Of a DNA stretch of 64,000 nt, positions 30,878-35,718 are shown one piece after another. Origin of the DNA: a bacterium (GTDB taxonomy: Bacteria > Myxococcota_A > UBA9160 > UBA4427); contig JANSYR010000001.1 in the NCBI GenBank assembly GCA_024742285.1, positions 744,001 to 808,000 of the forward strand, written 5' to 3'. Each line of letters begins with the position of its first letter. Position 1 is the first letter of the stretch. The notes under the pieces were generated by a model, which worked only from the letters and a program-made list of their open reading frames with translations, had not been told where the DNA came from and ran no database searches. The translations under genes and the position numbers were made by a program.

Positions 30878-32845
30878 TTGGCCGCCGAAAACGAATCCCC
30901 GTCCGCAGGAGCCGTCCAGAGCGTCGTCCTCGGCACCGCCGGCCACATCGATCACGGAAAGACCGCCCTCGTCCGCACGCTGACCGGCCGCGACCTCGAC
31001 CGGCTGCCGGAAGAGAAGGCGCGCGGGATCACGATCGAGCTCGGCTTCGCGCCCCTGGCCCTCGCCGACGACCTGAAGGTCGCGATCGTCGACGTGCCCG
31101 GACACGAAAAGTTCGTACGCACGATGGTCGCGGGGGCCTCGGGCCTCGACCTCGTGATGCTGGTGGTCGCCGCCGACGAAGGCGTCATGCCACAGACCCG
31201 GGAGCACCTGGCCATCTGCGAGCTGCTCGGCATCGACCGCGGCTTCGTCGTCCTCACGAAGAAGGATCTGGTCGACGAAGAGATGCTCGAGCTCGCCTAC
31301 GAGGACGTACGCGAAGCCCTCCTCGAGGGCCCCCTGGCGGACGCGCCCATCCTGGCCGCCAGCGCGGAGACCGGCGAAGGGATCGACGAAGTCCGCGCGA
31401 CCCTCGAGCGCCTGATCCGCGAGACCCCCGACCGGAGCGACGACGATCGGCCGTCGCGTCTCTTCATCGACCGCACCTTCACCAAGCACGGCTTCGGCGC
31501 CGTCGTGACGGGCACCTGGTCCGGTCGCCCCCGGCGCGTCGGAGACACGATCGCCCTCGAGCCCGGCGAGCGGAAGGCCAAGATCCGCGGCCTCGAACGC
31601 CACGGGGACGGCGTCGACGCGACCGAGTCCGGCGCGCGCATCGCCGTCAACCTGCAAGGCGTGTCCACGGAGGAGATCGACCGGGGCGACCTGATCACCG
31701 AGCCCGGCGCCGTCGCAGCGACGACGACCTTCGACGCGAGGCTCCGTTGGATGGCCAGCAAGGCCAGCCTCGAAGACGCCGCCTCGGTCGAGCTCCTCAC
31801 GGGAACCGCCGAGCGCCGTGCCCGGGTCGCGCTCGTCGGCTCCGCGCCGATCGCGCCGGGCGAACGCGGCTTCTGCCGGGTGCACGTCGACGGCGACGGC
31901 CTCCCTCTTCTCCCCGGCGATCGATTCGTGCTGCGCGGCTTCTCCCGGGACGCCGGCGTCGGCTCCACGCTCGGCGGAGGAATCGTCCTCGACGTCGCCC
32001 CGCCCCACCGTCGACGTCGCGACCCCGCGCTCGAGGCCGAGCTCGAACGCCTCGACGCGGGCGAGCTCGACGCGGGCCTCGCCGTTCGGATCGAACGCGC
32101 CGGCCTCGAAGGCTTGCGCGAGTCCCGCCTCGCGCTCGAGACCGGCGAGCGCGAAGCCGCGCTCGGCCCGGTCCTCGAAGGGCTCGCTGCCGACGGCACG
32201 ATCGTCCGACTCGAAGGCGGACTCTGCCTCGGGCGTGCCGCCGCCGACCGGTTGATGGAGACCCTGAACGAAGCACTCGAGGCGTTCCACGCCCGCGACC
32301 CGCTCCAGCCCGGCATGCCCCGCGCCGCCCTGATCGGCGCGCTGCCCGAGAACGTCCCCACGGAATCCGGCGCCGCCCTGCTCGCCCGCCTCGCCGAGCG
32401 CGGCGACGTCGAGATCCGCAGCGACGTCGTGACCCGGACCGGATTCGAGTCGACCCTCGACGCGGATCAGGAAGCGCTCGCCGAGAAGCTCCGGCTTCGC
32501 TTCGCCGAGGCGGGCCTCGAACCGCCGGCCATGCGAACCGTCGCCGAAGAGAGCGGAGAGGACGAGCGGTCGCTGCGCGCCGTCGCCCACTTCCTCGAAC
32601 GCGAAGGCGCCCTCGTCGCGGCGCCGGACGATCTCTTCTTCGACCGAGCGAGCGTCGTCCGCCTGATCGAAGACGTCGTCGCCCACTTCGCTTCGAGCGA
32701 CGAGCTCGATACGCAGACGCTCAAGGCGATGATCGGCGCGAGTCGTCGGACGGCGATGCCGCTGATGGCGCTCCTCGACGAGCTCCAGATCACCCGCCGC
32801 GACGGCAGCCTCCGCCGACTGATCGGCTCGGATCCGAAGTGGTGA
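30878..32845 (+). CDS. selB: Selenocysteine-specific elongation factor SelB
   Basis: A 655-residue GTPase that carries Sec-tRNA(Sec) to UGA codons marked by a SECIS hairpin. The GTPase motifs are AGHIDHGKT (G1), GITIELGF (G2), DVPGHEKF (G3) and a TKKDL (G4); then EF-Tu-like domains 2 and 3, and a C-terminal region of winged-helix repeats that bind SECIS RNA. Length fits SelB (about 610-650), not EF-Tu. Start TTG 30878-30880 is the only good choice. selA, selD and tRNA(Sec) are not in the window. A UGA-containing redoxin gene lies at 33421-34146. Confidence 0.96.
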
Positions 32846-32902
32846 CGAAACCGGAGATCGGCTGACGCCCATCTGATGGGATGCGCGTACACGATCCGGC
32901 GA

Positions 32903-33139
32903 ATGCCGACGATCGCGCGAATCGGTCCATACCGATTCTTCTTCTTCAGCAACGAGGGGCGTGAACCGCCGCACGTTCACGTCGAGCGAGACGCCGCAAC
33001 GGCCAAATTCTGGCTCGATCCCGTGGTGCTATCTTCGGCGGACGGAATGAGCAGTCGTGATCTCCGCCGTCTGCATTCGATCGTGGCGGAGCGACACGAG
33101 GAGTTCAGGAGCGCCTGGGATGAGTTCTTCCGCGCCTGA
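32903..33139 (+). CDS. DUF4160 family protein
   Basis: A 78-residue protein with the DUF4160 pattern: MPTIARIGPYRFFFFSNEG near the start, EPPHVHVERD and FWLDP. The family is often found next to a DUF2442 gene, as here, and the pair is suspected to be a toxin-antitoxin-like module; this is not shown. ATG 32903 fits the family's usual MPTI start; an ATG at 32876 would add nine residues. It overlaps the next gene by 20 nt. Confidence 0.85.
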   Translation: MPTIARIGPYRFFFFSNEGREPPHVHVERDAATAKFWLDPVVLSSADGMSSRDLRRLHSIVAERHEEFRSAWDEFFRA

Positions 33140-33392
33140 AAAGACGCCGCGCGCGACCTCCGTCGAGATCTCCGGCGACGAGCTGATCGTCACGCTTCGG
33201 GACGGGCGACGGATCGCCAGCCCGCTTGCGTGGTATCCGCGCCTCCAGGAAGCAACGCCCGAGGCGCGCGGGAACTGGACGCTCCTCGGCGACGGAGTCG
33301 GGATCCACTGGCCCGAGATCGACGAAGACCTCAGCATCGAGGGCCTGCTCGAAGGGCGGCCCGCGATCGGACTCGCACGCGAGGCGCGCTAG
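33120..33392 (+). CDS. DUF2442 family protein
   Basis: A 90-residue protein with the DUF2442 pattern: VTLRDGRRIASPLAWYPRL, then RGNWTLLGDGVGIHWPEIDED, ending with a helix that contains EGLLEGRP. These proteins usually accompany DUF4160 genes. ATG 33120-33122 lies inside the end of the DUF4160 gene, so translation is likely coupled. The pair sits between selB and the redoxin selenoprotein gene, which is on the opposite strand and ends 28 nt away. Confidence 0.87.
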   Translation: MSSSAPEKTPRATSVEISGDELIVTLRDGRRIASPLAWYPRLQEATPEARGNWTLLGDGVGIHWPEIDEDLSIEGLLEGRPAIGLAREAR

Positions 33393-33420: not shown

Positions 33421-34146
33421 CTACGCCAGCGTCTCGTTGATCGCCCCGAGCACCCGGCCCGGCGCGCTCCGCAGCATGTAGTCGTCGGTCTGGTCGATCC
33501 AGGCGACCTTTCCGTCCGCGTCGACCAGGAAGGTCGTCGGGATCGGCAGACCCCCGAGGCCGCGCGGGCTCACGTTGAGCGGATTGCGCAGATTCAGCTG
33601 ATCCGTCACGGAGAGGTCCGGGTCCGACAGGAGCGTGCCCTTCATGTGGTGCTTGGGCCGACCCTCGCGGAGCTGCTCCGGCGTGTCGGTGCAGATCGCC
33701 ACGAGCGCGATCTCCTTCTCGTCCAGCATCGGCCGGAGCTCTTCCCATCGCCGCAACTCGGCGACACAGTAGGGTCACCAGTGGCCGCGAAAGAACTTGA
33801 GCAGGTAGGGCTTGCCCGTCAGGCTCGCGAGGTCGAAGTCGTTCCCGTTCTCGTCGGGCGCCACGAAGGGGATCATCGGATCACCGACGGCGACCGCCGG
33901 CCGATTCGGCTGCTGCTTGCTCTGGAGCCGGAGCGCCGGAAAGACGAAACCCACGAACGCGGCCGGCACGCCGAACAGGACGTTGAAGAATCCGCCCTGT
34001 CCGATCGCGACGAGACCGAGCGCGCCGGCGGAGAGGAACGCGGCGAACCAGCCTCGCCGGTCGCGGGGGATCGCGACGCGGCCGATCAGCTGGAACCAGT
34101 TGTAGAAGGTCGCCGCGACGACGATCAGTGCGAGCAGTCCGAGCAT
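33421..34146 (-). CDS. Membrane redoxin (Prx-like) with in-frame UGA as selenocysteine
   Basis: Read through one UGA (33775-33777), this is a 241-residue protein. Residues 1-75 form about three membrane helices (MLGLLALIVVAATFYNW, then helices near 33-52 and 53-72); residues 85-241 are a peroxiredoxin/thioredoxin-like domain. The UGA, codon 124, falls in the CxxC active site: FFRGHW-U-PYC, where relatives have CPYC, and the frame on both sides is clearly one domain (TFLVDADGKVAWIDQ downstream). The peroxidatic Sec would attack peroxide and Cys127 would resolve it. AAGGAG precedes the ATG at 34144-34146. A SECIS-like hairpin follows the UGA and selB is 576 bp away. Confidence 0.88.
33744..33774 (-). 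promoter_or_regulatory. Candidate bacterial SECIS element
   Basis: Directly after the UGA the minus-strand RNA can form TCGCC/GGCGA (33760-33764 with 33748-33752) around the loop GAGTTGC, with CCC (33772-33774) pairing GGG (33744-33746) below an internal bulge. The loop begins with G and lies about 15 nt past the UGA, close to the spacing and the loop-G feature described for bacterial SECIS elements. Folding was done by eye, not computed. Confidence 0.65.
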
Positions 34147-34239
34147 GGGGTTGCTCCTTCCGGGTCGGAAAAGCCCGGGCGGGCCGCCGACCGTCCCCCG
34201 AAGCGTACCGCAACGCGGCGAAGTCGCGGAAGCCGCGCG

Positions 34240-35718
34240 CTAGAGCCGCAGGGTCGCGACCGCCCGGTCGATCCAGATCGCGAGCTGGCCCGCCATGTTC
34301 GTCTCGCCGAGGATCGGACTCACCCCCAGCCAGATCGTGATCGCGCCGCAGACGAGCAGGACGAGCTGCTCGTTCGACAGAGCGCGGCTTCCCGTCTCGT
34401 TCCCGTCCGCGTTCCGCATCATCGCGAGCAGCGGACGACCGACGGCGGAGAGCGCGAGGACCGTCGCGGCGAGGCCCACGACCATGGCCCAGCGATGACC
34501 GCCGTGCTCGAGACCCTGAAGGATCCGGAATCGCGCGACGAAGCCGAGGGTCCCGGGAACGCCGCCGAGCGACAACAGAAACGTGCCGAGCAGGGCCGCA
34601 CGAAGCGGGCTCGTCTGCATCATGCCGGCGAGGTCGCCGATGTGTTCGCAGGCGCGTTCGTGATGGCTGAGCGAGCTGAGCGTCGCCATCACGCCGGTGA
34701 TCGCCGCGCCCGACGCGATCAGCCCCCAGAGCAGCGCCTGCGCGCCGTCGCCCTGCGCCTCGACGAGGGCGAGCGTCAAGAACCCGACCTGTCCGACGGC
34801 GATCCAGCCGACCAGGCGGCGAAGCCCGACCTGCACGAGCGCCATCGCGTGTCCCCAGACGAGAGCGAGCCCGCCGAGACCCGTGAGCAGCGTCGGCAGT
34901 CGTGTCCCGAACGAGTCCGGCTCGGCGAGCAGCGCGCCGGGCGCCGCGTGGAGCACGCGCAGCAGGACGAGGAAGATCGTCGCCTGCGCGACCGTCGCGA
35001 CGTGGGTCGTCACGAAGCTCGGTGCGCCTTCGTGAACGTCCGGCGACCAGGGGTGGAAGGGCGCGATCGCGGCCCGGGCGACGAGCCCGAGGACGACCAG
35101 CGAGAGCCCGACGTCGAAGGCGAAGCCGTGCTCGACGCCGGCGCCCGAAAGGCCCGCGAGATCGAGTCGGCCGGTCGCGCCGAAGACGAAAGCGAGACCG
35201 TGGGCGAAGACCAGGCTCGCGAAGACGTGAGCGAAGAAGGCCTTGAGACTCGACTCGCTCGAAGAAAGACGCCGCGAGTCGATCGCCACCAACGCGATCA
35301 TCGGTAGCCAGGCGAGCTCGATCGCCACGAGGAGCACCACCAGGTGGTCCGTCACGACCGCGGCCATCGCGCCCGCCCAGGAAAAGAGCAGCAACGCGAT
35401 CGGCTCCGCGGGGCGACTGCGCGCCATGCCGAAATGGGTGAGCGAGAGCGCGAGGACGAGGGCGCCGGAAACCACGATGAAGCCGATCCCGAAGAGGCCG
35501 AACCCGTCGATGTCGAGGACTCCGCCGACCGGCTCGCGGCTGCCCCAGGCGAGGGTGAAGGCGACGCCCATCAGACTCACGACCGCGACGGCGCCGAGAC
35601 GGATGCCGGCCAGGGCGGTCTGGCGATGACCGCTCCGGTCGCCGCGACCGAGAAGATCGAGGGCGAGGATCGCGAGGGCGCCGAGCGCCGGCATGAGCAC
35701 CGGATTCAACAGGCTCAT
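34240..35718 (-). CDS. nuoN: Complex I membrane subunit N-like protein
   Basis: A 492-residue antiporter-like subunit with about fourteen helices. The fifth-helix glutamate is kept (E134 in VAIELAWLP), but by-eye alignment with E. coli NuoN places R215 (VARAAIAPFHPW) at the pump lysine of helix 7 and Q245 (TVAQATIF) at the central lysine of helix 8. The protein keeps PFHPWSPDVHEGAPS. Start ATG 35716-35718 overlaps the nuoM stop by 4 nt. It is the last gene of the seven-gene cluster and ends about 90 nt from the redoxin selenoprotein start. Confidence 0.85.
   Translation of the reverse strand: MSLLNPVLMPALGALAILALDLLGRGDRSGHRQTALAGIRLGAVAVVSLMGVAFTLAWGSREPVGGVLDIDGFGLFGIGFIVVSGALVLALSLTHFGMARSRPAEPIALLLFSWAGAMAAVVTDHLVVLLVAIELAWLPMIALVAIDSRRLSSSESSLKAFFAHVFASLVFAHGLAFVFGATGRLDLAGLSGAGVEHGFAFDVGLSLVVLGLVARAAIAPFHPWSPDVHEGAPSFVTTHVATVAQATIFLVLLRVLHAAPGALLAEPDSFGTRLPTLLTGLGGLALVWGHAMALVQVGLRRLVGWIAVGQVGFLTLALVEAQGDGAQALLWGLIASGAAITGVMATLSSLSHHERACEHIGDLAGMMQTSPLRAALLGTFLLSLGGVPGTLGFVARFRILQGLEHGGHRWAMVVGLAATVLALSAVGRPLLAMMRNADGNETGSRALSNEQLVLLVCGAITIWLGVSPILGETNMAGQLAIWIDRAVATLRL

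Follow-up and report, generated by a model that had tools for sequence, protein, structure and literature searches.

On the minus strand of the 64,000-nt stretch of DNA analysed here (referred to as the window), a reading frame runs from an ATG at 34146 to a TAG stop at 33423–33421 and is open except for a single TGA at 33775–33777, exactly as an earlier reading of the sequence alone (the sequence-only reading) had described. Translated with TGA as selenocysteine (Sec, U), this gene (33421–34146) comprises 241 codons followed by the stop, and is preceded by a Shine-Dalgarno-like AAGGAG (34154–34159, minus strand) located 7 nt before the ATG. The TGA is codon 124 and opens a UPYC active site (RGHWUPYC with its preceding residues), in the column that is occupied by cysteine in Cys homologues and was earlier recognised as that of the first active-site cysteine. 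Its partner in this UxxC motif, Cys127, is encoded at 33766–33768 on the same strand. Among all in-frame TGAs of the 64 kb, a mechanical scan found a redox active-site motif at the UGA of this gene only. Moreover, a single AhpC-TSA match (PF00578; 83.9 bits against a cut-off of 26, E 1.1e-23) spans the UGA from residue 87 to residue 216 (33499–33888, minus strand), so that both halves of the frame indeed belong to one redoxin domain; PF08534 was matched as well.

The convergent neighbour of the gene is selB (30878–32845, plus strand), encoding the selenocysteine-specific elongation factor (TIGR00475, 297.7 bits, cut-off 242.25), and the upstream gene on its own strand encodes a nuoN-like complex I subunit (34240–35718, minus strand; PF00361), itself following nuoM-like and nuoL-like genes. 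Between selB and the gene lie two adjacent genes, DUF4160 and DUF2442 (32876–33392), and since selB is found within ~70 bases of the gene in the close relatives examined, this pair may be an insertion. The gene is adjoined by selB in six genomes of the genus (its own and five others), and nuoL/M-like genes lie upstream of it in its own genome and in the four other same-genus genomes for which longer flanks were examined. Outside the genus, neither selB nor nuo genes were found beside it, and no shared gene was seen when the neighbours there were compared by eye. As this arrangement is conserved in the genus only, the context gives no substrate. In one relative (L038, reverse complement, 3–1331), the gene is preceded by what appears by eye to be a DsbD-type thiol:disulfide interchange-like gene, whose product is a possible redox partner.

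Of 61 related genomes searched with the read-through protein, 37 contained close homologues, 46 in total, and all of these homologues continue through the UGA rather than ending before it, each with exactly one in-frame TGA. A phylum-wide scan with a 35-sequence profile gave 85 matches in 64 of 379 genomes, 83 with one TGA and two with none. In the phylum of an Acidobacteriota-labelled metagenome-assembled genome (MAG; L049), 20 matches were found in 19 of 297 genomes, with a TGA in 16, and in the order to which a Zongyanglinia genome (Alphaproteobacteria) belongs, two matches were found in 293 genomes, neither with a stop. One Acidobacteriota-side relative (L137; G734:C1:5378349-5379077) was reported with two in-frame TGAs. 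In a codon-by-codon alignment, the residue-124 codon is TGA in 28/28 Sec sequences and TGC in the Cys homologues. The latter, which the sequence-only reading had proposed to look for, occur in Zongyanglinia, Parasedimentitalea and one Polyangia MAG (with RGGWCPYC or RGAWCPFC), and the Sec124 column is Cys in L046, L047, L048 and L050. A tree of 62 rows required three Sec/Cys changes; because two of the Cys rows and one of the Sec rows sit on long branches, we make no claim on the direction of these changes.

This distribution bears directly on what the TGA is. The genome assembly consists of multiple contigs and might thus harbour a misread or misassembled TGC or TGT at this site, but the TGA is present in all 46 homologues and recurs across dozens of independent assemblies, with frozen SECIS codons adjoining it, so that the base error at 33775–33777 against which the sequence-only reading had cautioned is the least credible explanation of all. 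Standard translation of the locus produces ORFs of 123 and 111 residues, the very split that had been foreseen for gene callers, and this is also what would be observed if the UGA really terminated translation or had arisen as a frame-breaking mutation, leaving a 123-residue membrane protein followed by a pseudogene or a separate short gene. However, the dN/dS (NG86) after the UGA was 0.08–0.15 in seven pairs, the downstream half being under purifying selection equal to or tighter than that on the upstream half. The same TGA is moreover shared by dozens of genomes and the UGA falls inside one fold, which makes termination at this codon highly improbable.

The machinery for selenocysteine insertion is present in the genome. 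Its tRNA-Sec scored 67.8 bits, above the cut-off, with anticodon UCA (ARAGORN), SelA gave a match of 522.9 bits, and SelD (259.4 bits) was found as a 760-residue fusion of the Ndh-SelD type. The possibility that tRNA(Sec), SelA and SelD might be missing from the genome, raised at the outset, thus did not materialise, and SelB adds to the set. The SelD fusion is encoded at L089:256-2538 and has SelD behind an NADH-dehydrogenase-like flavoprotein domain; this fusion type is described in PMC2398784. Across the 61 relatives, SelB scored above its cut-off in 34 of the 37 with the gene versus 16 of the 24 without it. One relative carrying the gene (G041) had no SelB above the cut-off, and its assembly may be incomplete. 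A frame that is open under another code does not by itself prove Sec, and UGA could instead be reassigned genome-wide (e.g. to Trp) or undergo readthrough that does not involve selenium. However, TGA terminates selB and many members of the family, position 124 is held by Cys and not by Trp in homologues, and the full Sec machinery is accompanied by a covarying SECIS, so that we attach very little probability to this reading as well.

The bSECIS element is a hairpin at 33747–33765 (minus strand), with a 7-bp stem whose outermost pair is G-U, a loop AGUUG and a 16-nt spacing after the UGA. With the U of the UGA taken as nt 1, nt 13–19 and 25–31 (33765–33759 and 33753–33747 in the window) form the stem and nt 20–24 (33758–33754) the loop. 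The bSECIS rule given in PMC13188914 calls for a loop of 3–9 nt, a stem of 4–16 bp, a G among the first two loop bases and a spacing of 16–37 nt, and the loop AGUUG, 6–7 bp stem and 16-nt spacing found here lie within it. The sequence-only reading was therefore right about a SECIS-like hairpin, but not about a G-leading loop, the G being the second loop base, which the rule allows.

Several lines of evidence single out this hairpin. In 27 distinct sequences, 95.8% of the cells were paired, and 20 cells had changed on both sides compared to 6.1 +/- 1.8 after shuffling (none of 500 shuffles reached this number), while shifting the partner by 1–3 columns left at most 63% paired. RNAalifold alone recovered six pairs of this stem, all but the outermost, and that outermost pair (13–31) was unpaired in 6 of the 27 sequences. 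In distant relatives both sides of the stem have changed (e.g. UCGCUG/CAGCGA and AACUCCG/CGGAGUU), with a loop AGUUR in most of them. The codons of the hairpin are also synonymously frozen: GTC GCC GAG TTR CGG CGA is invariant in the 28 Sec sequences, with zero synonymous variation at codons 128–130 and 132–133 and only TTG or TTA for Leu131, even though TTG and CGA make up just 2.8% of Leu and 8.8% of Arg codons, respectively, in the genes of the window. The mean synonymous entropy was correspondingly 0.165 bits at the hairpin codons versus 1.27 at 45 other conserved codons, and the Cys homologues have other codons at this site, without the hairpin. Random synonymous samples drawn from the codon usage of the genome had a 6-bp stem with a G[G/U] loop in 0.076% of cases, so that the element exceeds what chance would give. 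Raw folding energy did not separate the hairpin from its synonymous variants (14% of which fold equally well), so that the separation comes from the loop rule, the codon freezing and the covariation. Three sequences with the UGA (L120, L133 and L137) have a loop AACUG that goes against the G rule, and in L133 and L137 the stem is poorly kept too; their SECIS may be of a different form. Rfam placed no RNA family over the gene, nowhere in the window did a family exceed its gathering score, and no model matched the SECIS.

The AlphaFold2 model of the read-through protein (pLDDT 94.2) shows three N-terminal helices followed by a redoxin fold, in line with the membrane-anchored protein of about three helices and a redoxin domain that had been proposed. 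The three predicted transmembrane helices (residues 2–22, 31–50 and 53–74; 33925–34143, minus strand) are backed by hydropathy and by K/R in the loops, and Pfam has no match there. These helices have a hydrophobic character, and in most members Arg/Lys residues abound in the first loop, a charge pattern that suggests an N-out/C-in topology with a cytoplasmic redoxin domain. Foldseek assigned a thioredoxin-like fold (E 4.5e-11), with Bcp-type peroxiredoxins and ResA as top matches. Among 35 sequences, both Cys127 and Pro203, the conserved proline of the IPT motif in the redoxin domain, are invariant.

Two kinds of chemistry have to be weighed for this active site. In the alignment, the Sec124 column holds the first Cys of ResA-type CxxC motifs and a Ser of Aeropyrum Bcp, and the Cys127 column holds the second CxxC cysteine and the next Cys of Aeropyrum Bcp, which is the peroxidatic one in that family. 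Together with the Bcp/PrxQ-type peroxiredoxins heading the fold matches and the PRK09437 thiol peroxidase model weakly matching 35/35 members, this alignment would fit a selenoprotein that acts mainly as a peroxiredoxin destroying membrane hydroperoxides, with a peroxidatic Cys127 that Sec124 only assists. However, ResA-type CxxC oxidoreductases match about as well, and the classical peroxiredoxin signature PxxxT/SxxC is absent, with an Arg (R120) replacing the Pro seven residues before the Cys and U124 standing at the T/S position. Judged by this motif, the protein should be a thioredoxin-like Sec/Cys oxidoreductase at the membrane and not a classical peroxiredoxin, the peroxidase role being its main rival and one to which we give a real though clearly minor chance.

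The comparative evidence shows a selenoprotein gene, in which SelB, guided by the hairpin after UGA-124, delivers Sec-tRNA(UCA) to the ribosome, and decoding of this UGA as selenocysteine yields the 241-residue protein. The three predicted N-terminal helices would anchor this protein in the inner membrane, with the redoxin domain probably facing the cytoplasm. Sec124 would hold the attacking position of the thioredoxin-type UxxC and Cys127 would act as the resolving residue, which makes cycling between the selenol/thiol and selenenylsulfide states the most likely course of catalysis. Disulfides or hydroperoxides would thereby be reduced at the membrane and the enzyme re-reduced by cellular thiols. 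Based on sequence and modelling, we are highly confident that 33421–34146 is a selenoprotein gene of this kind, combining hairpin-guided decoding of UGA-124 with a three-helix membrane redoxin and thioredoxin-type Sec124/Cys127 chemistry. A more far-reaching idea, which we put forward as a long shot, is that the members form a hitherto unrecognised three-helix membrane selenoenzyme family in which electrons pass between the redoxin domain and the membrane itself, through either lipid hydroperoxides or respiratory-chain thiols/quinones; in five genomes of the genus, nuoL/M-type complex I genes lie just upstream of the gene.

The genome is rich in comparable frames, as 8 of its 15 AhpC-TSA matches, including the gene at 33421–34146, have one TGA. 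Outside the window, six AhpC/TSA frames with one in-frame TGA (L141, L142, L143, L146, L011 and L013) carry the motifs TPGUT (three frames, PrxQ-like), VWUPPC, DWUPFT (a UxxT) and RGHWUPFC, and these six add up with the gene at 33421–34146 and C11:242058 to eight candidate redoxin selenoproteins. The RGHWUPFC frame lacks a membrane anchor.

UxxC Prx-like and redoxin selenoproteins have already been catalogued (PMC13188914, PMC9312934 and PMC2398784). The Prx-like thiol:disulfide oxidoreductases among them (PF00578 with UxxC/UxxU, Table 1 of PMC13188914; Prx-like 1 of PMC2398784) share with the window protein a PF00578 redoxin domain, a UxxC site and a predicted SECIS-driven Sec, and the window protein has the PF00578 domain plus UxxC by which this class is defined. 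Compared by description, it differs in its anchor, of which the texts consulted make no mention. A second catalogued group, the "Redoxin family protein, UxxC" (PF08534; HEU0032618.1 and MBA3499694.1), is given without an architecture in PMC13188914 and PMC9312934; by description it likewise has the redoxin domain, UxxC and PF08534 match in common with the window protein, and it could be the same group as the anchored subfamily.

Among better-known proteins, the ResA/TlpA thiol-disulfide oxidoreductases also combine a membrane-anchored redoxin domain with a CxxC-type motif and a cis-Pro region. ResA is anchored by a single helix and its domain is extracytoplasmic, whereas the window protein has three helices, a Sec and probably a cytoplasmic domain, and it scored 40.2 bits with the ResA model (NF002854), below the cut-off of 170. 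The closest solved folds are those of PrxQ/Bcp peroxiredoxins, a group that includes the Sec-containing PrxU. Unlike in these proteins, the Sec of the window protein is located at the T position of TxxC and not at the peroxidatic position, the three frames elsewhere in the genome being the true TPGU PrxQ-type ones. The PrxU model had no match to the window protein up to E = 1 and weak matches to 21 other members (best E 2.2e-7). The NCBIfam selenoprotein models WAxxUGC (24.1 bits, cut-off 300) and SelL-related (18.4 bits, cut-off 120) stayed below their cut-offs for the window protein. Pfam contains no model for the three-helix anchor, no NCBIfam model scored above its cut-off for the anchored form, and searches of PHROGs and NCBIfam returned no informative family. 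In the open literature searched, we found no paper on a membrane-anchored bacterial redoxin selenoprotein. Since UxxC selenoproteins are already catalogued, the earlier suggestion of a new architecture holds in a narrower form, in that only the large, nearly all-Sec, three-helix membrane-anchored subfamily may be new, as far as could be checked.

The family is widespread and occurs in Myxococcota- and Acidobacteriota-labelled genomes, in which automatic annotation would present each member as two short hypothetical proteins. Whereas Cys forms are common in most known selenoprotein families, selenium is kept almost without exception in this one (83 of 85 matches in the phylum scan), which offers a clear-cut opportunity to ask how a redox enzyme of the membrane benefits from selenium. 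The AGUUR hairpin, which is short, covaries and persists across phyla, in turn provides a well-defined bSECIS pattern with which further overlooked selenoproteins of this group could be found.
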